Source: Haloprofundus halobius
GTDB taxonomy: Archaea; Halobacteriota; Halobacteria; Halobacteriales; Haloferacaceae
Length of the DNA: 64,000 nt
Direction of reading: 5' to 3'
Assembly: GCF_020097835.1 (NCBI RefSeq)
Contig: NZ_CP083666.1
Coordinates: 372,001 to 436,000, forward strand
Shown: in pieces, positions 10,359 through 18,451 of the stretch
Position numbering within the stretch: the stretch's first letter is position 1
Layout: each line of letters opens with the position of its first letter
Position numbers and translations under genes: made by a program
Notes under the pieces: generated by a model
Seen by the model: only the letters and a program-made list of their open reading frames with translations
Databases searched by the model: none
What the model was told of the DNA's origin: nothing

Positions 10359-10506
10359 GTTGCACCGCGACCGAACGAGCGAAGCGAGTGAGAGAGCGGG
10401 CCGACGACTGAGTGGAGGTGCGAAGCACCGAAACGAAGGAGGAGTGCTTTTGGTCCAGCTTTTGCCGAGGGCGCGCTCCGCGCGCCCGCAGCGTAAAAGG
10501 TGGGGT
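10359..10506 (-). repeat. Structured 3' repeat, copy C (short form)
   Basis: Read on the minus strand it starts about six bases after the stop of the distal phoU. ACCTTTTAC (10493-10501) faces GCAAAAGCT (10457-10465) with two mismatches (C-C and A-C). The inner stem is GGGCGCGC-GGA-GCGCGCCC. It lacks the two middle hairpins of copies A and B and joins AAAAGCT directly to GGACCAAAAGCAC. It then has GGTGC-TTC-GCACC and ends near TCGCGGTGCAAC. Confidence 0.8.
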
Positions 10507-10507
10507 T

Positions 10508-11179
10508 CTAGTAGATGAGCGCGTCGTCGTTCTCAATCATGTAGAGGGTGCGGGCGGCGATATTGACCGCGTGGTCGCCGACGCGTTCGAGGTCGCGAAT
10601 CGTCAGCAACAGTCGGGAGACGTCCTGCATCATGCTCTCGATGTCCGCATCGTCGTTGGTCTCACCCTCGATGAGGTCGCGAACGACGATTTCGCTGGCG
10701 GCCTCGCACATCGCGTCGAGTTCGTCGTCCCGCTCGGCGATGGCGTAGCACGCTTCGGCATTGTCTTGGGCGTACGCATCCATCGCCTCGTCGAGCATCT
10801 CCAGCGTGAGGTCGCCGATGCGCTGGATGTCGACGTCGGGGAAGACGTCGCGCTCGGCGCTCTTGGCGTACTGCCCGAGATTGGTCGCGAGGTCGGCGAT
10901 ACGTTCGAGGTCGGTGATAATCTTGAACGACGCGGCGATGAAGCGGAGGTCGCCCGCGACGGGCTGTTGGAGGGCGATGAGGTCGATGCACTGCTGTTCG
11001 AGATCGAGATACATCCGATTTATCTCGGCGTCGCCTTCGATTATCTCCTCGGCAAGCTGATCGTCCTTCTGTTCGAGCGCGTCCATCCCCATCCGGAGAC
11101 GTTCGCTGACGACTTCGCTCATGTAGAGCACGTCCTCGCGGAGAGATTCGAGTTGAGATTGGTATTCGTCGCGCGGCAT
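10508..11179 (-). CDS. phoU: PhoU phosphate-signalling regulator, distal copy
   Basis: PhoU is a dimeric helical protein that damps phosphate uptake by PstSCAB and coordinates phosphate signalling. The 223-residue protein has two three-helix PhoU repeats, each with the signature metal-binding helix: DLRFIAASFKIITDLERIAD and LLLTIRDLERVGDHAVNIAA. It is the last gene of the pst cluster and ends DDALIY, identical to the neighbouring phoU, which points to tandem duplication. Start is ATG 11177-11179; a GGAGGT directly touches the ATG, too close to act as a ribosome site. Haloarchaea lack PhoR/PhoB, so its partner may be the pst transporter or the AbrB-PhoU fusion protein encoded nearby. Confidence 0.95.
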   Translation of the reverse strand: MPRDEYQSQLESLREDVLYMSEVVSERLRMGMDALEQKDDQLAEEIIEGDAEINRMYLDLEQQCIDLIALQQPVAGDLRFIAASFKIITDLERIADLATNLGQYAKSAERDVFPDVDIQRIGDLTLEMLDEAMDAYAQDNAEACYAIAERDDELDAMCEAASEIVVRDLIEGETNDDADIESMMQDVSRLLLTIRDLERVGDHAVNIAARTLYMIENDDALIY

Positions 11180-11454: not shown

Positions 11455-12120
11455 CTAGTAGATGAGCGCGTCGTCGTTCTCGACCATGTAGAGCGTGCGG
11501 GCGGCGATGTTGACCGCGTGGTCGCCAACGCGCTCGAGGTCACGAACGGTGAGGAGGAATCGGTTCACCTCGCCGAACAGTAATTCGTCGCGTCCGTCGG
11601 GGTCGAACTCGACGAGGTCGCGGACGACGCGTTCGCCGACGCGTTCGCAGAGGCCGTCGAGTTCGTCGTCACGGTCGGCCACCGCGTAGCAGGTGTCGGC
11701 GTCTTCGCGTGCGTACGCCGCCAGCGACGCCTCGACCATCTCGACAGTGAGCTTGCCGAGGTCCTGCAGGTTCACGTCCGGGAACAGTTCGCGCTCGCGC
11801 GAGAGGAGGTAGCCGCAGATGTTCGCCACGAGGTCGGCGATGCGTTCGAGGTCGGTGATGATCTTGAACGAGGCGACGACGAGTCGGAGGTCGCCGGCGA
11901 CGGGCTGTTGGAGGGCGAGCAGGTCGACGCAGCGGCGTTCGAGGCGGAGGTACCACTCGTTTATCTCGTGGTCGCGTTCTGCGAGCGAGCGTGCTCTGTC
12001 GGCGTCGCGGGCGTCGAGCGCCGCGAGCGCCTTCCGGAGTCGGGAGACGACCGCCTCACCCATGGCGAGCACCTCGTCTCGCAACTCGTCGAGTTCGCGC
12101 TGAAACTGCTCGCGCGGCAT
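11455..12120 (-). CDS. phoU: PhoU phosphate-signalling regulator, proximal copy
   Basis: The 221-residue protein is a second PhoU with the same two-repeat design (DLRLVVASFKIITDLERIAD and FLLTVRDLERVGDHAVNIAA). It begins six bases after the pstB stop and is therefore in the pst operon. Its last 28 residues differ from those of the distal copy at a single position, while the middles are more diverged, which is a pattern of old tandem duplication with conserved or gene-converted 3' ends. Both copies carry a structured repeat directly downstream. Start ATG 12118-12120. Confidence 0.95.
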   Translation of the reverse strand: MPREQFQRELDELRDEVLAMGEAVVSRLRKALAALDARDADRARSLAERDHEINEWYLRLERRCVDLLALQQPVAGDLRLVVASFKIITDLERIADLVANICGYLLSRERELFPDVNLQDLGKLTVEMVEASLAAYAREDADTCYAVADRDDELDGLCERVGERVVRDLVEFDPDGRDELLFGEVNRFLLTVRDLERVGDHAVNIAARTLYMVENDDALIY

Positions 12121-12126
12121 ACCGGA

Positions 12127-13005
12127 CTATCCGAACTTGCCGGTGATGTAGTCTTCGACGCGTTGGCTCTCTGGATTCTCGAATATCTTCTGCGTGTCGT
12201 CGAACTCGACGAGTTCGCCGCCGGTGAGGAACACCGCGGTCTTGTCCGAGATGCGTGCGGCCTGCTGCATGTTGTGGGTGACGATGACGACGGTGTACTC
12301 CTCGGCGAGGTCGGCGATGAGGTCTTCGACCTGCGAGGTGGCGACCGGGTCGAGCGCCGACGCCGGTTCGTCCATCAGGATGACGTCCGGGTCGACGGCG
12401 ATGGCGCGGGCGATGCAGAGGCGCTGCTGCTGGCCGCCCGAGAGGTCGAGCCCCGACTCGTCGAGGCGGTCCTTCACCTCGTCCCACAGCGCCGCCGACT
12501 TGAGGGCGTTCTCGACCTTCTGGTCCAAGTTCTCGGTCTTGCCCTGTATCTTCAGCCCGTAAGCGACGTTCTCGTAGATGCTCTTCGGGAACGGGTTCGG
12601 CGACTGGAACACCATCCCGATGCGTCGCCGGAGCGCGACGGGGTCGACGTCGTCGTCGTAGACGTTCTTCCCCTCGAACTTCAGCTCTCCCTCGATACGG
12701 CAGGACTCGATGAGGTCGTTCATCCGGTTGATACACCGGAGGAACGTCGACTTCCCACAGCCGGAGGGACCGATCATCGCGGTCACTTGCTGCTTCGGAA
12801 TCTCGATGTCGATGTCCTGTAGTGCCTGGGTGTCCCCGTAGAACACGTCGAGATTCTTCGACGAGACGACGGTTTCGGTTCGTTTCGGCTGGTTCAGCTC
12901 GTCGCTGTCGACCACTTCCGACCCCGGCCGTGGCGACGTCTGCGATTCGACGCTACTGTCGCTCTCGGTGTTCGGGTCGGGAGTAGTCATGTTCTCCTTG
13001 CTCAT
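12127..13005 (-). CDS. pstB: Phosphate ABC transporter ATP-binding protein PstB
   Basis: PstB powers phosphate import by ATP hydrolysis at the cytoplasmic face of PstC/PstA. The protein (292 residues from ATG 13003-13005) has Walker [10 protein letters not shown], the signature LSGGQQQR, Walker B VILMDEP and the switch histidine in IVTHNMQQA. About 40 N-terminal residues are polar and unconserved. I chose this start, [10 protein letters not shown], because GGAGGT lies nine bases upstream (13015-13020); the in-frame ATG at 13026 lies before this site, inside pstA. The gene starts four bases after the pstA stop. Products PstS, PstC and PstA are encoded upstream. Confidence 0.95.
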
Positions 13006-13009
13006 GTGT

Positions 13010-14635
13010 TTACGACCTCCGCTCATATTTGTTCCGGATAAGTATCGCTGCGGCGTTCATCGACAGCATCACCGTGACGAGCGTGACGACGCCCGCGGCC
13101 ATCACGCCGTACTGGAACTCCTGGGACGGCTGTCCGACCCAGGCGTAAATCTGTCGCGGCATCGCGCTGAAGATGTCGAAGAAACCGTCCGGCGCGCGGA
13201 ACACCGACGCCGCGGCCCCGATCATCAGAAGCGGGGCCGTCTCGCCGATGGCGCGGCCGAACGCGAGGATGCTCCCGGTGAGGATGCCCGGTAACGCCTC
13301 GGGGAGCACGACTCGGCGTATCGTCTGCCACCGCGTCGCCCCCATCCCGTAGGACGCCTGCCGGAGCGACCCGGGCACCGCCCGAATCGCCTCTTGCGCC
13401 GAGATGATGATGATAGGCAAGATGAGCAGTCCGACGGTCATCCCGCCGACGATGACGATACCGCTGGCGAAGTCGAGCCAGTTGACGAACAGCGCGAGTC
13501 CGAGCAGCCCGTAAACGACCGACGGCACGCCCGCGAGGTTCGCGATGTTGATCTCGATGAACTTCACGACCATCCCCAGCGGGCCGTCGCTGGGCGCGTA
13601 CTCTTCGAGGTACAGCGCCGCGCCGACGCCGATGGGGAACGACGAGAGGGCGACGACGACCATCATCATGATCGACCCGATGAGCGCCGGGTAGATACCC
13701 GCCTCCTCGGGGAACCGGGAGTTCGCGCTGGTGAGGAACTGGTAGTCGAGCCACGTCTCCGGACCGGCGAAGCCGAGCAGATCGACGAGCGCCGCACCCG
13801 ACAGCATCCCGGCGACGACGACGAGCGGGAACAGCAGTCCCACCGGCCGTACCTCCCGCCGGCGGACGACGCCTTCGACGTACAGCGCCGTCGGGACACC
13901 GGCGAAGGTGAAGAGGATGACCCATATCTGCGGGGTGATGCCGGTCGAGGGGTCGATGAACACCCCGGCGGTCACCGTCGCCAGCAGCGCCCCGAAGGCG
14001 AGAAGACCGGCGCGCTGGTCGTCTCGACGGCGGGCGACGACGAAACCGCCGACCGCCGCGCCGCCGAGTCCGAACGTGAACAGGTAGATGAGCCACGCCT
14101 GTGGTACGGTCGGGAACGTCGAGACGAACTGGAACGTGGCCGGCGCGAGTCCGACGAGGGCGACGACGCCGACGGCGAGTTCCTCGACGAACGAGGTTCG
14201 GCCCCGCAGCCGCCTGTGGCCGACGATGACGCCGACGGCGAGGCCGACGGCGACGACGAACGCCAGCCACTCGACGACGCTGAGCACGTCGACGAACAGC
14301 AGCAACACGCCGCTGCCCAGGAGGAGTCCGAAGAACGGAACGGCGAGCGCCGTCAGCGCGACCGTCGCCTCGCCGTCGCCTCTCCGACGATAGTAGGCGA
14401 GAAGCGCCGTCGAGGGGGCGACGAGCGTCAGGAAGAAGACGAGGAACCACCGGGGGTCGGCCGTCAGCGGCCGAATGGCGTCTTTCGCCACGTAGACGAG
14501 CAGCCCGGCGACCATGAGGATACCGAACAGCGTCGCCGACAGGCAGGCCGCCGCGAACACTTTCCCGGGCATACGGCTGATCTGTTCGGAGTTACCGAAC
14601 CACTCGCCGGTCGCTCCGTCCCGTTGCGTCGCCAT
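13010..14635 (-). CDS. pstA: Phosphate ABC transporter permease PstA, with extended N-terminal membrane region
   Basis: The C-terminal 270 residues are a standard PstA: the permease core starts at [16 protein letters not shown], then [30 protein letters not shown] and the ATPase-coupling EAA loop [20 protein letters not shown]. Before it lie roughly 270 residues with about seven further membrane spans, giving 541 residues against about 290 in bacteria. Such long N-termini are usual for haloarchaeal PstA and of unknown use. GGAGGT nine bases upstream (14645-14650) supports ATG 14635. It lies 40 bases after pstC in the operon. Confidence 0.93.
13015..13020 (-). promoter_or_regulatory. Ribosome binding site that sets the pstB start
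   Basis: GGAGGT on the minus strand is followed by nine bases and the ATG at 13005. It overlaps the end of pstA, so translation of pstB is probably coupled to that of pstA. The same hexamer with the same spacing precedes pstA. Confidence 0.7.
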
Positions 14636-14675: not shown

Positions 14676-15596
14676 TCATTGGTACTCCTCCCGGTACCGC
14701 GACGCGACGAACGTGCTGGCGAGATTCATGGCGAAGGTGATTACGAACAGCGTGATTCCGATGGCGAACATCGCCTTGTAGGCGGTGGACCCGCCCGCGA
14801 TGTCCGTCGTCACGAGCTGGACCATCGCGGCGGTCATCACTTCGAGCGACTCGAACGGGCTCGGGACGAGCCGAGGGCGCATCCCGGCGGCGACGACGAC
14901 GATCATCGTCTCGCCGATGGCCCGCGAGAGCGCGAGGATGAACGAGGAGAAGATGCCGGAGGCGGCCGCCGGGATGACGACACCGGTCGACACCTCCAGT
15001 TTCGTCGCGCCTATCCCGTAGCCGGCCTGCCGGAGCGAGTCAGGGACGGCGCTCATCGCGTCCTCGCTCAGGCTCGACACCATGGGGACGATCATGATTC
15101 CGATCATGATGGACGCGCTGAGGGCGTTGAACGTACTCAGGGGCAGTCCGAGCCATTCGAGCGCGGGTGTCAGGTAGACGAGTGCGAAGTAGCCATAGAC
15201 GACCGTCGGGATGCCCGCGAGGATTTCGAGCGACGGTTTGATCACCGACCGCGTCCGCCGACTCGCGTACTCGCTGAGGTACGTCGCCGACGCGACGCCG
15301 ACCGGGATGGCGATGAGGGCGGACAGGAAAGTCACGAACAGCGTCCCGGCGACCAGCGGCAGGACGCCGAACTCCTGGCCGATGGTCGGACTCCACGTCG
15401 TTCCGAGGAAGAAGTCGAGCGGCGGTACGTCGAGGAAGAAGTCGACGGCGTCGAACAGCAGCGTCGCGACGATAGCGGTGGTTACTGCGACCGAGAGCGC
15501 GGCGCAACCGAACAACAGCCACTTGATACTCTGCTCGCGCGCGGATCGGACGCCCGAACGGCCGACGAAGTCGGGTGGGTTACTCTCTTGGCTCAT
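14676..15596 (-). CDS. pstC: Phosphate ABC transporter permease PstC
   Basis: The 306-residue membrane protein has six predicted spans. Family landmarks are [18 protein letters not shown] in the first external loop, [26 protein letters not shown] and the coupling loop [15 protein letters not shown]. With PstA it forms the phosphate channel in the membrane. The N-terminal 25 residues are polar and cytoplasmic. ATG 15594-15596 is the first start in frame; no clear Shine-Dalgarno sequence precedes it. It follows pstS after 105 bases in which I see no other gene. Confidence 0.95.
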
Positions 15597-15701: not shown

Positions 15702-16742
15702 TCAGTCGCTGCTGTACTCTTCGAGCTTGCTCAGGTTCTCGTCGCGCAGCTCCGCGCTGGACGGGACGTAGCCGATCTGGCTGACGATGTCCGTCTCCGC
15801 CTGTTCGAGGTAGTACTCCACGAACGCGTACACCTGCTCTTTCTCCTCCAGCGAGGACTGCGCCGCGTAGATGAACAGCGGCCGCGCCATCGGGTAGTCG
15901 CCGCTCTTGGCGTTCTCGATGCTCGGCTTCGTGCAGTTGCCGTCCTCGTTCTTCTTTATCTGCACCGCTTTGACGTTGTCGCGGTTCTCCTCGTAGTAGG
16001 CGTACCCGAAGAAGCCCATCGCGTACTCCGAGCCCTCGATGCCCTGGATGATGCGGTTGTCGTCCTCGGTCGGTTCGTAGTCGCTGCGGAGCGACCCCTC
16101 CTCGCCGATGACGTTCTCGATGAACCAGTCGAACGTCCCCGAGGAGGACGCCGGCCCGTAGAGGTCGAACTCCTCGTCGGGCCACTCGGAGTTGATGTCG
16201 CTCCACGTCTCCGCGCCGTCGGGTTGCCAGATCTGCGCGAGCTGGTCGAAGCTGAGACAGTCGACCCAGTCGGCCTTGTTGTTGACGGCGACCGTCAGCG
16301 CGTCGCTGGCGACCTGAAACTCGACGGGCTCGACGTCGTTCTCCGAGCAGAGCTCCTTCTCGCTCTCCTTGATCGGACGCGACGCGCCGTTGATGTCGGC
16401 GTTTCCGGGGCAGAAGTGGTTCTGGAACCCGCCACCGCTGCCGGTCGAGTCGACGGAGACGTTCACGTCGTGTTCGGTCATGAACTCCTCGGCCATCGCC
16501 TCGGAGACGGGGTAAACCGTACTGCTCCCCTTGACGATGACTTCGCCGGAGAGGTCTCCCGAGCTCCCGCCCTCGGAGTCGTTGCCGGAGCTTCCGTTGT
16601 CGCCGGAGCCACCCGAGCCGCCGGAACTCGCACCTGGGTTGGTCGTACAGCCGGCGAGTCCGACTACCCCGGCCGAACCCGCACCGACGAGGAACTTACG
16701 CCGTGATACGCTGTCCGTCCCGTCCGACGTCTGTCGCGTCAT
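15702..16742 (-). CDS. pstS: Phosphate-binding lipoprotein PstS (Tat-exported)
   Basis: PstS captures phosphate outside the cell and hands it to PstCA. The N-terminus has a Tat motif SRRKFLVGAGSAG (arginines at residues 14-15), then the lipobox GLAGC with Cys32, so the protein is exported folded and lipid-anchored. A Gly/Ser/Asn linker follows. The binding domain starts VIVKGSSTVYPVSEAMAEEF and contains DSTGSGGGFQ, the phosphate-binding loops. I start at ATG 16740-16742 (346 residues); a TTG one codon earlier is possible. It is the first gene of pstSCAB-phoU-phoU and has its own strong promoter. Confidence 0.95.
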   Translation of the reverse strand: MTRQTSDGTDSVSRRKFLVGAGSAGVVGLAGCTTNPGASSGGSGGSGDNGSSGNDSEGGSSGDLSGEVIVKGSSTVYPVSEAMAEEFMTEHDVNVSVDSTGSGGGFQNHFCPGNADINGASRPIKESEKELCSENDVEPVEFQVASDALTVAVNNKADWVDCLSFDQLAQIWQPDGAETWSDINSEWPDEEFDLYGPASSSGTFDWFIENVIGEEGSLRSDYEPTEDDNRIIQGIEGSEYAMGFFGYAYYEENRDNVKAVQIKKNEDGNCTKPSIENAKSGDYPMARPLFIYAAQSSLEEKEQVYAFVEYYLEQAETDIVSQIGYVPSSAELRDENLSKLEEYSSD

Positions 16743-16786
16743 CAACTGTTCATGACCGACTGAGACATAAGTAGCCTGCTATGACA

Positions 16787-16859
16787 GCTATATAGCCGTA
16801 GGTATGTGAAACGGTATCCATAGTCGCTCGCAGGCGAGAGGAAATGTTCGTTCACATAC
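16787..16859 (-). promoter_or_regulatory. pstS promoter with upstream inverted repeat
   Basis: GCTATATAGC (16787-16796) is a TATA box whose start point would fall near 16766, leaving about 24 leader bases. Directly upstream of it is the 9-bp inverted repeat GTATGTGAA (16802-16810) and TTCACATAC (16851-16859), 40 bases apart. The position just behind the TATA box suits an activator or BRE-overlapping regulator of phosphate starvation. A second palindrome, GATCTC-TTTCG-GAGATC, is at 16917-16933 between the divergent genes. Confidence 0.5.
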
Positions 16860-17022
16860 ACATTCGAGGTGTAACGATATTCTGCCGTGTAGTGCCGATA
16901 TCCCGAATCCGTTCGAGATCTCTTTCGGAGATCGTTTCGTCACGAGTGCTCCCGAACGTCCACGGAACAGTTCAGTTCTATCCGTACTCTCCCGAAATAA
17001 GTATCCCACCATATCTTGGCCG

Positions 17023-17033
17023 CCTAATATATA
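17023..17033 (+). promoter_or_regulatory. TATA box of the AbrB-PhoU gene
   Basis: CCTAATATATA lies about 45-54 bases upstream of ATG 17077 and predicts a start of transcription near 17053. An ATG at 17050 in the same frame would then be almost leaderless, but the conserved protein starts at 17077. Confidence 0.5.
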
Positions 17034-17076
17034 GTTGAGAGGTAAATTTATGAGGAAGATTCGCCCATCTACCCAC

Positions 17077-18078
17077 ATGGTCGAGACGCGAAAAGTGCAG
17101 GTGACGGGCGGTTCGACGTACACGGTGTCGATACCGAAGGAGTGGGCGACCGAAAACGGCGTCAGCGCCGGCAGCGAGGTCGAGTTCTACCCCGAGGGCG
17201 ACTCGTTGTTCCTGACGCCGCGGACCGAGGAGGAGCGAACCGAGGGGACGCTCGACATCTCCCAACTCGACGGTCAGGAACTCGTGCGCGCGGTGATGAC
17301 GATGTACGTCAGCGGGTTCGACGTTATCGCCCTCGAGAGCGGCCGCATCACCAACGACCAGCGTCGGACCGTCCGAGAGGCGACACAGAGCCTCGTCGGT
17401 CTCGAAGTGTTGGAGGAGACGCGGGACCGCATCGTCATCCGCGACCTGTTGGACTCCTCGGAGCTCTCGATTCACAACGCCGTCACGCGGATGCGGCTCA
17501 TCGCGTTGTCGATGCTCGAAGACGCGGTGAGCGCGCTCGCCGAACTCGACATGGACATGGCCGAGGACGTCATCCAGCGCGACGACGACGTCGACCGCCT
17601 CTACATGGTCGTCTCGCGCATCTTCCGGGCGACGCTCCGTACGCCGAAGGCCGCCGAGGAACTCGGTCTCCCCCGAGAGGTCTGTTTCGACTACCACTCC
17701 TGCGCCCGACAGCTCGAACGGGTCGCCGACCACGCGACGAAGATTGCCCACCTGACGCTCAACTTCGAGGAACCGGTCCAAGACGACGTGCTCGACGCGC
17801 TCTGGGAACTGCACGCCGACGCGACCACCGTCGTCGACGCGGGGATGGACGCGCTGTTCTCCGACGACAGCGTCGAGGCGACCGAGATCGCCAACGAGGC
17901 CCGAGAGTCCGTCCAGGAGATCGACGAACACGCGCGCACCATCGACGAACTGCTCCGCGACCTCGACCCCGTCCGCGCGCAGATGCTCGGCCTCGTCGTC
18001 GACTCGCTGTCGCGCAGCGCCGACTACGGCGGCAACATCGCCGAGACGGCGCTGCAGAAGGCCGCCCCGACGCCGTAA
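17077..18078 (+). CDS. AbrB-PhoU fusion regulator divergent from the pst operon
   Basis: The 333-residue protein has an N-terminal SpoVT-AbrB swapped-hairpin DNA-binding domain (residues 1-50: VETRKVQVTGGSTYTVSIPK and then EWA) and a C-terminal PhoU-like helical domain with two PhoU repeats (about 90-330), including RQLERVADHATKIAH. PhoU modules sense phosphate status, so the fusion is a good candidate for a DNA-binding phosphate regulator. Its location, divergent from pstS across a 330-bp gap with palindromes, supports control of the pst operon. The start MVETRKVQ at 17077 is where the AbrB domain begins; ATGs at 17035-17050 add nine to fourteen unconserved residues. A structured repeat follows the stop after four bases. 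Confidence 0.88.
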   Translation: MVETRKVQVTGGSTYTVSIPKEWATENGVSAGSEVEFYPEGDSLFLTPRTEEERTEGTLDISQLDGQELVRAVMTMYVSGFDVIALESGRITNDQRRTVREATQSLVGLEVLEETRDRIVIRDLLDSSELSIHNAVTRMRLIALSMLEDAVSALAELDMDMAEDVIQRDDDVDRLYMVVSRIFRATLRTPKAAEELGLPREVCFDYHSCARQLERVADHATKIAHLTLNFEEPVQDDVLDALWELHADATTVVDAGMDALFSDDSVEATEIANEARESVQEIDEHARTIDELLRDLDPVRAQMLGLVVDSLSRSADYGGNIAETALQKAAPTP

Positions 18079-18082
18079 CGCC

Positions 18083-18271
18083 ACCTTTTACGCTGTGGGC
18101 GCGCTCCGCGCGCCCTCGGTAAAAGCTGGACCAAAAGCACTCCTCATTCGTTTCGGCGCTTCGCGTCTCCACTCAATCGTCGGCCCGCTCGCTCACACCG
18201 GGAGAGCTTCGCTCTCCCGAGCTCTCGTTCGCCTCCGGCTCACGAGAACTCCGTTCGCTCGCGGAACAGTT
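18083..18271 (+). repeat. Structured 3' repeat, copy E (short form)
   Basis: ACCTTTTAC (18083-18091) pairs with GTAAAAGCT; the A-T pair replaces the G-C pair of copies A and B. The inner stem is GGGCGCGC-TCC-GCGCGCCC. AAAAGCT joins directly to GGACCAAAAGCAC. A CGGGAGAGC-TTC-GCTCTCCCG hairpin and the end CGCTCGCGGAACAG follow. It lies after the AbrB-PhoU gene and points towards copy F, 38 bases away. Confidence 0.82.
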
Positions 18272-18309
18272 ACTCAGCGACAACAACTCCGACAGCCACA
18301 GAAAGCAGT

Positions 18310-18451
18310 TTCACCACGAGCGAGGGCGTAGCCCGAGCGAGTGGGCCGAGGAGAGAACGGAGGGCGGCAAAGCCGCCCGAAGTGAACGACGAGTGCTTTT
18401 GGTCCAGCTTTTGCCGAGGGCTGGCGCAGCCAGCCCGCAGCGCAAAAGGTG
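18310..18451 (-). repeat. Structured 3' repeat, copy F (short form)
   Basis: On the minus strand it starts about nine bases after the rps8e stop. ACCTTTTGC pairs with GCAAAAGCT and encloses GGGCTGGC-TGC-GCCAGCCC, a palindrome not used by the other copies. It continues GGACCAAAAGCACTCG, then GGGCGGC-TTT-GCCGCCC, and ends near CTCGCTCGTGGTG. Copies E and F face each other between two convergent genes. Confidence 0.82.

Follow-up and report, generated by a model that had tools for sequence, protein, structure and literature searches.

A conserved, helically phased element in the pst promoters of haloarchaea, and the AbrB-PhoU fusion encoded opposite pstS in Haloprofundus halobius

In bacteria that use PhoR-PhoB, the Pho box upstream of pst is made of direct repeats at a spacing of one helical turn, and it serves activation at low phosphate. 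How phosphate uptake is controlled in archaea without PhoB is poorly worked out in the portions of the literature on which we draw. In Halobacterium, pho-boxes are described as essential for pst up-regulation (PMC6560208, citing Furtwangler 2010); those of Halobacterium salinarum (pho-box or P-box) lie in pst promoters, and the up-regulation that needs them is attributed there to PhoU regulators. In Haloferax volcanii, the gene for PhoU2 (HVO_2374) adjoins pstS1 (HVO_2375), and the passages of PMC6267482 that deal with it predict DNA binding and describe no operator. A third relevant protein, TK2245 of Thermococcus kodakarensis, is a SpoVT/AbrB-PhoU protein listed among chromosome-associated proteins (PMC7325993). 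Because haloarchaeal PhoU regulation with pho-boxes, and a PhoU2 with predicted DNA binding beside pst1, are already in print, the core idea developed here is not new; a class-wide consensus or helical phasing was not found described in the open-access portion of the literature searched.

Here we describe an element in the pst promoter of Haloprofundus halobius that is conserved across the haloarchaeal class, specific to pst promoters and helically phased. The subject is the pst control region at 16743–17076 of a 64,000-nt stretch of the genome (hereafter the window), which lies between pstS and a divergent gene encoding an AbrB-PhoU fusion. The surrounding genes are as follows.

10508–11179, minus strand: stand-alone PhoU, second copy (TIGR02135, 172.4 bits)
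11455–12120, minus strand: stand-alone PhoU, first copy (TIGR02135, 169.5 bits)
12127–13026, minus strand: PstB ATPase (ABC_tran, E = 5.5e-32)
13010–14635, minus strand: pstA-like permease (open reading frame named from gene order and length)
14676–15596, minus strand: pstC-like permease (open reading frame named from gene order and length)
15702–16742, minus strand: pstS, phosphate-binding lipoprotein (TIGR02136, 256 bits)
17077–18078, plus strand: AbrB-PhoU fusion, candidate regulator, 333 aa (Pfam domains; PhoU fold by Foldseek; orthologue in 116 of 116 class genomes)

The pst operon ends in two tandem stand-alone phoU genes, 58% identical to each other, and with the fusion the locus encodes three PhoU-domain proteins. 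Near gene ends there is also a 29-base sequence, a dispersed repeat or terminator-like element, with three copies in the window (10442–10470 on the plus, 18114–18142 on the minus and 18391–18419 on the plus strand; with 0 or 1 mismatch, where chance predicts none), two of which form a long inverted pair around 18114–18419.

The conserved part of the control region is a block at 16768–16806 made up of TAAGTA, CTGCTATGA, CTATATAG and a weaker third site. Its components, and those of the promoter on the opposite side, are:

16768–16773, minus strand: probable pstS-operon TATA box (minus-strand TACTTA, plus-strand TAAGTA; conservation and fixed spacing to the start codon)
16776–16784, minus strand: the operator's first CTAT site (plus-strand CTGCTATGA; about 1.4–1.9 bits at the CT/CTAT letters in 37 aligned loci)
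16788–16795, no strand assigned: second site, the CTATATAG module (conserved; displaced in variants, in phase with the canonical distance of 20)
16798–16806, no strand assigned: third, weaker site (consensus nTAYRTW; moderate information at offsets 11–17; includes the start of the left arm of a palindrome)
17027–17034, no strand assigned: ATATATAG (CTATATAT on the minus strand), upstream site in the AbrB-PhoU promoter (CTATATA; TATATA recurs across loci)
17047–17051, plus strand: probable AbrB-PhoU TATA box (TTTAT; TTTAW spacing in 70 loci)

When aligned on CTATATAG, 37 of 39 pstS/AbrB-PhoU intergenic regions yielded the consensus TAAATACNCTRCTATNANNNCTATATAG plus the weaker nTAYRTW; TAARTA is among the most conserved positions, and information content is about zero beyond some 24 bases from the anchor. 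Two regions without the anchor (L049, L055) were excluded, and one that is apparently mis-anchored (L051) was retained. The information-content figures come from this alignment, since the information content of sites collected by pattern is biased by the search pattern; the pattern-collected set excludes L189, a likely false match with no pst gene alongside. By eye, there is no dyad symmetry about CTATATAG.

In a scan of the window the element scored 54 bits and the runner-up in 64 kb scored −5.7. The H. halobius genome contains one copy even with three mismatches allowed, and thus no wider regulon carrying the full element at that tolerance. At two mismatches or fewer the element occurs in 83 of 116 class genomes (the reversed-pattern control gave 0), while 84,980 bacterial and archaeal genomes yielded 57 exact copies, under haloarchaeal titles only. 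These precede pst genes in 55 of the 57 places, the other two being cut by the end of the locus, and on this ground we read the element as an operator of pst rather than a general promoter. In sitting in pst promoters it resembles the pho-box, and the H. halobius element may be the published haloarchaeal P-box; helical phasing and class-wide extent are absent from the account of the Halobacterium salinarum box in the relevant passages of PMC6560208. At a handful of loci (L139, L164, L199, L200 and the second site in L185), the element, with 0–2 mismatches, stands before an operon whose first gene is pstB and not pstS.

The earlier note on this DNA had taken CTATATAG for the pstS TATA box, a role for which another part of the block is probably better placed. 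Archaeal TATA boxes lie about 27 bp before the transcription start. Of 151 non-redundant sites, 125 have the pstS start codon exactly 28 bp from TAARTA (canonical form, 85 of 106; variants, 40 of 45). The Haloferax loci, where the pst1 operon (HVO_2375–2378) is reported to be leaderless (PMC6560208), share this spacing. Given the fixed spacing, the reported leaderless mRNA and the usual archaeal position, TAARTA (TAYTTA on the pst strand) is probably the pstS TATA box, with the CTAT and CTATATAG sites upstream of it; CTATATAG is probably not the core TATA box. The AbrB-PhoU promoter shares this plan of a TATA box with an upstream TATATA: among 70 loci, TTTAW lies mostly 27–31 bp and TATATA mostly 43–50 bp before the start codon. 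Within the 64-kb window CTATATA occurs only at 16788–16795 and 17027–17034, that is, in the pstS and AbrB-PhoU promoters.

The 33 class genomes without the element at two mismatches all have PstC, and their pst promoters reveal how the element varies. We read 40 of the 52 above-cut-off PstC matches, covering 29 of the 33 genomes. Nineteen of these 40 upstream regions have a TAARTA-type block (recognized by a loose expression), 16 a different element and five neither. All 19 keep the first CTAT site, and most have CTATATA elsewhere; in an enlarged collection this displaced-CTATATA type accounts for 62 of 190 distinct sites, the first CTAT site again being retained where CTATATAG is displaced. 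The displaced word lies mostly 29/30, 38–40, 50, 59, 69 or 79 bp from the start of the block, as against 20 in the canonical form. Counting once per sequence cluster, and leaving aside distances found in fewer than half of a cluster's members, we obtained 24, 29, 29, 30, 38, 39, 39, 40, 50 (four times), 59 (three times), 69 (four times) and 79. A period of 9.90 bp fits best, its phase matches the canonical 20, and none of 2000 uniform nulls, which also scanned periods, reached the signal; null counts here are guides and not exact probabilities, as the clusters are related by descent. CTATATAG shifts by whole helical turns as the TATA box keeps a constant position, with a single distance, 24 bp, departing from the ~9.9-bp phase. 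Counting against the phasing, 23 of 2000 nulls reached the CTATATA signal at the second clustering threshold, where more distant clusters were merged to leave 11 distances; with nine distances the figure was 0 of 2000. The shorter word CTAT gave 0 of 2000 under all three clustering settings, and the control words GTAC, TCGA and CGGT were unremarkable (200 or more of 2000 nulls).

A second type of pst promoter exists in other haloarchaea, with TAAA-N(4–5)-TTTATA, often palindromic (e.g. TAAACTCGTTTA), at L205, L212, L215, L216, L218, L220, L221, L223–L225, L227–L230, L232 and L233. In many of these loci its distance from a start codon is roughly constant. The pattern suggests a second phosphate operator.

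The gene on the other side of the region does encode a fusion of AbrB and PhoU domains, as had been read from the sequence. Both domains exceed their curated cut-offs and stand in the order AbrB/MazE-PhoU (MazE/AbrB PF04014, residues 8–51, E = 7.8e-12; PhoU PF01895, residues 136–226, E = 1.9e-22). In the structural model the PhoU part forms a six-helix bundle (helices 132–329), which Foldseek matched to the PhoU entries 1t72, 1t8b, 2i0m, 1sum, 1xwm and 4q25 with target TM scores of 0.68–0.80. The AbrB part, which would form a swapped-hairpin, DNA-binding dimer if it follows the AbrB pattern, is of low confidence in the monomer model (residues 1–12 have pLDDT below 50), and 16 of the 21 residues from 4 to 24 are invariant among 26 proteins. 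An orthologue is present in 59 of 60 family genomes, including 53 of 53 near-complete ones, and in all 116 of the class; it lies divergently within 1.5 kb of the exact element in 39 of the 57 places, is absent from that distance in 15 and could not be judged in three. Since the orthologue is universal in the class, co-occurrence of fusion and element is uninformative by itself. Nine genomes carry two orthologues, and all 18 copies have the element 239–280 bp upstream. In g13, a large genus, the fusion gene examined lies away from pstS; the pst promoters there retain the block, and the fusion gene's own promoter retains TATATA. The PhoB-type DNA-binding domain PF00486 had no match in the H. halobius genome; the control for this search matched in 10 of 14 genomes.

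Two further H. halobius proteins carry PhoU domains. A second AbrB-PhoU fusion (L018:1501–2487; G000:C1:1339220–1340206), about 30% identical to the first, follows an open reading frame that by eye looks like an NAD kinase, with no pst gene recognized alongside. The other protein (L006:565–1893, minus strand; G000:C1, about 2.50 Mb) has two PhoU domains, each apparently followed by a TrkA_C-like stretch, and neighbours a citrate-synthase-like open reading frame (names again given by eye).

How might these parts work together? We give an even chance to the reading that the region is a shared control region for the pst import operon and a dedicated one-component regulator, AbrB-PhoU, which would bind the phased sites. 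The fusion would occupy the few CTAT/CTATATAG sites that lie immediately upstream of the pstS TATA box (minus-strand TACTTA), and because successive sites are about one helical turn apart it would do so on one face of the DNA. At low phosphate, the PhoU part would let the bound protein recruit the transcription machinery and so activate pst; at high phosphate, PhoU, perhaps via Pst and the two stand-alone PhoU proteins, would turn pst off. The CTATATA site at 17027–17034 could provide autoregulation. Both the binding to the phased sites and the activating sign are predictions; we infer the sign from the position of the sites upstream, from variants that lie up to 79 bp along and from the need for pho-boxes in up-regulation (PMC6560208). 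Hypochlorite tolerance results from transposon insertion in either HVO_2374 or pstS1, and the authors ascribe it to raised intracellular phosphate or polyphosphate (PMC6267482); this would fit an activator, and other readings exist. Weighing against the activator reading are the 15 of 57 exact-element places without AbrB-PhoU within 1.5 kb, and the 33 of 116 genomes that lack the element at two mismatches despite having PstC, together with the existence of the second promoter type. The first CTAT site, moreover, overlaps the region that a repressor would use.

That last observation leads to the alternative that survives best, although we consider it unlikely: AbrB-PhoU may be a repressor that sits on the sites beside BRE/TATA at high phosphate, blocks TBP/TFB and leaves at low phosphate. 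Lying next to the TATA box, the first site (16776–16784) necessarily overlaps the BRE region, and the presence of the pst transcript at low phosphate (PMC6560208) agrees with release of a repressor. Variant CTATATA sites 39–79 bp along are too far away to occlude the core promoter, yet they keep the helical phase, and pho-boxes that are essential for up-regulation, as reported in PMC6560208, fit activation better.

Less likely again is that the element is read by a different factor (of the Lrp/AsnC type, a specialized TFB/TBP pair or a metal regulator), with AbrB-PhoU merely modulating Pst. According to the relevant parts of PMC2894021, pstC2 of Halobacterium was induced by Lrp over-expression, and a link between SirR and phosphate transport has been made in the same organism; with the fusion orthologue universal, linkage cannot exclude another universal factor. 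Against this, AbrB-PhoU repeatedly adjoins the element (39 of 57), its duplicates travel with the element (18 of 18) and its own promoter carries CTATATA. We think it highly improbable that the conservation merely marks a strong and unusual core promoter (BRE, TATA, initiator) that lacks a dedicated regulator, for although the block includes the probable TATA box, the element is unique to pst in the H. halobius genome and CTATATAG shifts by whole helical turns as the TATA box stays fixed.

The operator originally proposed for this region was a different one, namely two palindromes:

16802–16859, no strand assigned: 9-bp inverted repeat whose left arm shares bases with the third site and whose right arm is not conserved (1 of 39 loci)
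16917–16933, no strand assigned: GATCTC/GAGATC palindrome (not conserved; 1 of 39 loci)

The letters and coordinates of both were given correctly: the arms of the first, GTATGTGAA at 16802–16810 and TTCACATAC at 16851–16859 around a 40-bp loop, match exactly, and GATCTC-TTTCG-GAGATC is an exact inverted repeat. Conservation is what they lack, since the single instance of each among the 39 intergenic regions is the window's own, with none in four congeners. Nor are they above chance: among 500 dinucleotide shuffles of the region, 6.6% contained a 9-bp inverted repeat (loop no longer than 60) and 38% a 6-bp one (loop no longer than 5). At the left-arm position the window and the four congeners read GTATGTGAA, GTATGAGAA, GTACGTGAA, GTATGGGAA and GTATGAGAA; the site is conserved, and its partner is absent in all four congeners. 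The palindromes are thus ruled out as a conserved operator, and we give almost no credence to their being the operator at all. Of the phosphate switch that the earlier note suggested for the divergent region, the fusion gene is real and a pst-specific conserved element is present, though not in the form of these repeats.

The preferred reading, activation by AbrB-PhoU bound to phased sites, resembles bacterial PhoR-PhoB in how a phased pst element would work. The letters of the bacterial Pho box differ from those of the H. halobius element, and so does the candidate reader, which in a genome without PF00486 is an AbrB domain fused to PhoU; this protein may replace PhoR/PhoB in phosphate control. 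TK2245 has the same domain pairing in another lineage, and no target or operator is given for it in the relevant passages of PMC7325993. A class-wide, nearly invariant, single-target operator with a PhoU-carrying candidate regulator adjoining it makes the question of archaeal phosphate control directly testable in Haloferax volcanii, and the helical phasing would allow face-of-helix activation to be tested cleanly at an archaeal promoter. More tentatively, we suggest a haloarchaeal one-component analogue of PhoB, in which a ladder of CTAT sites at whole-turn spacing would let AbrB-PhoU assemble along a single face of the pst promoter, with the upstream module sliding by one to six turns in phase. 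Read as such a ladder, the in-phase sliding by whole turns would mean that an archaeal promoter tolerates changes in distance, though not in angle.
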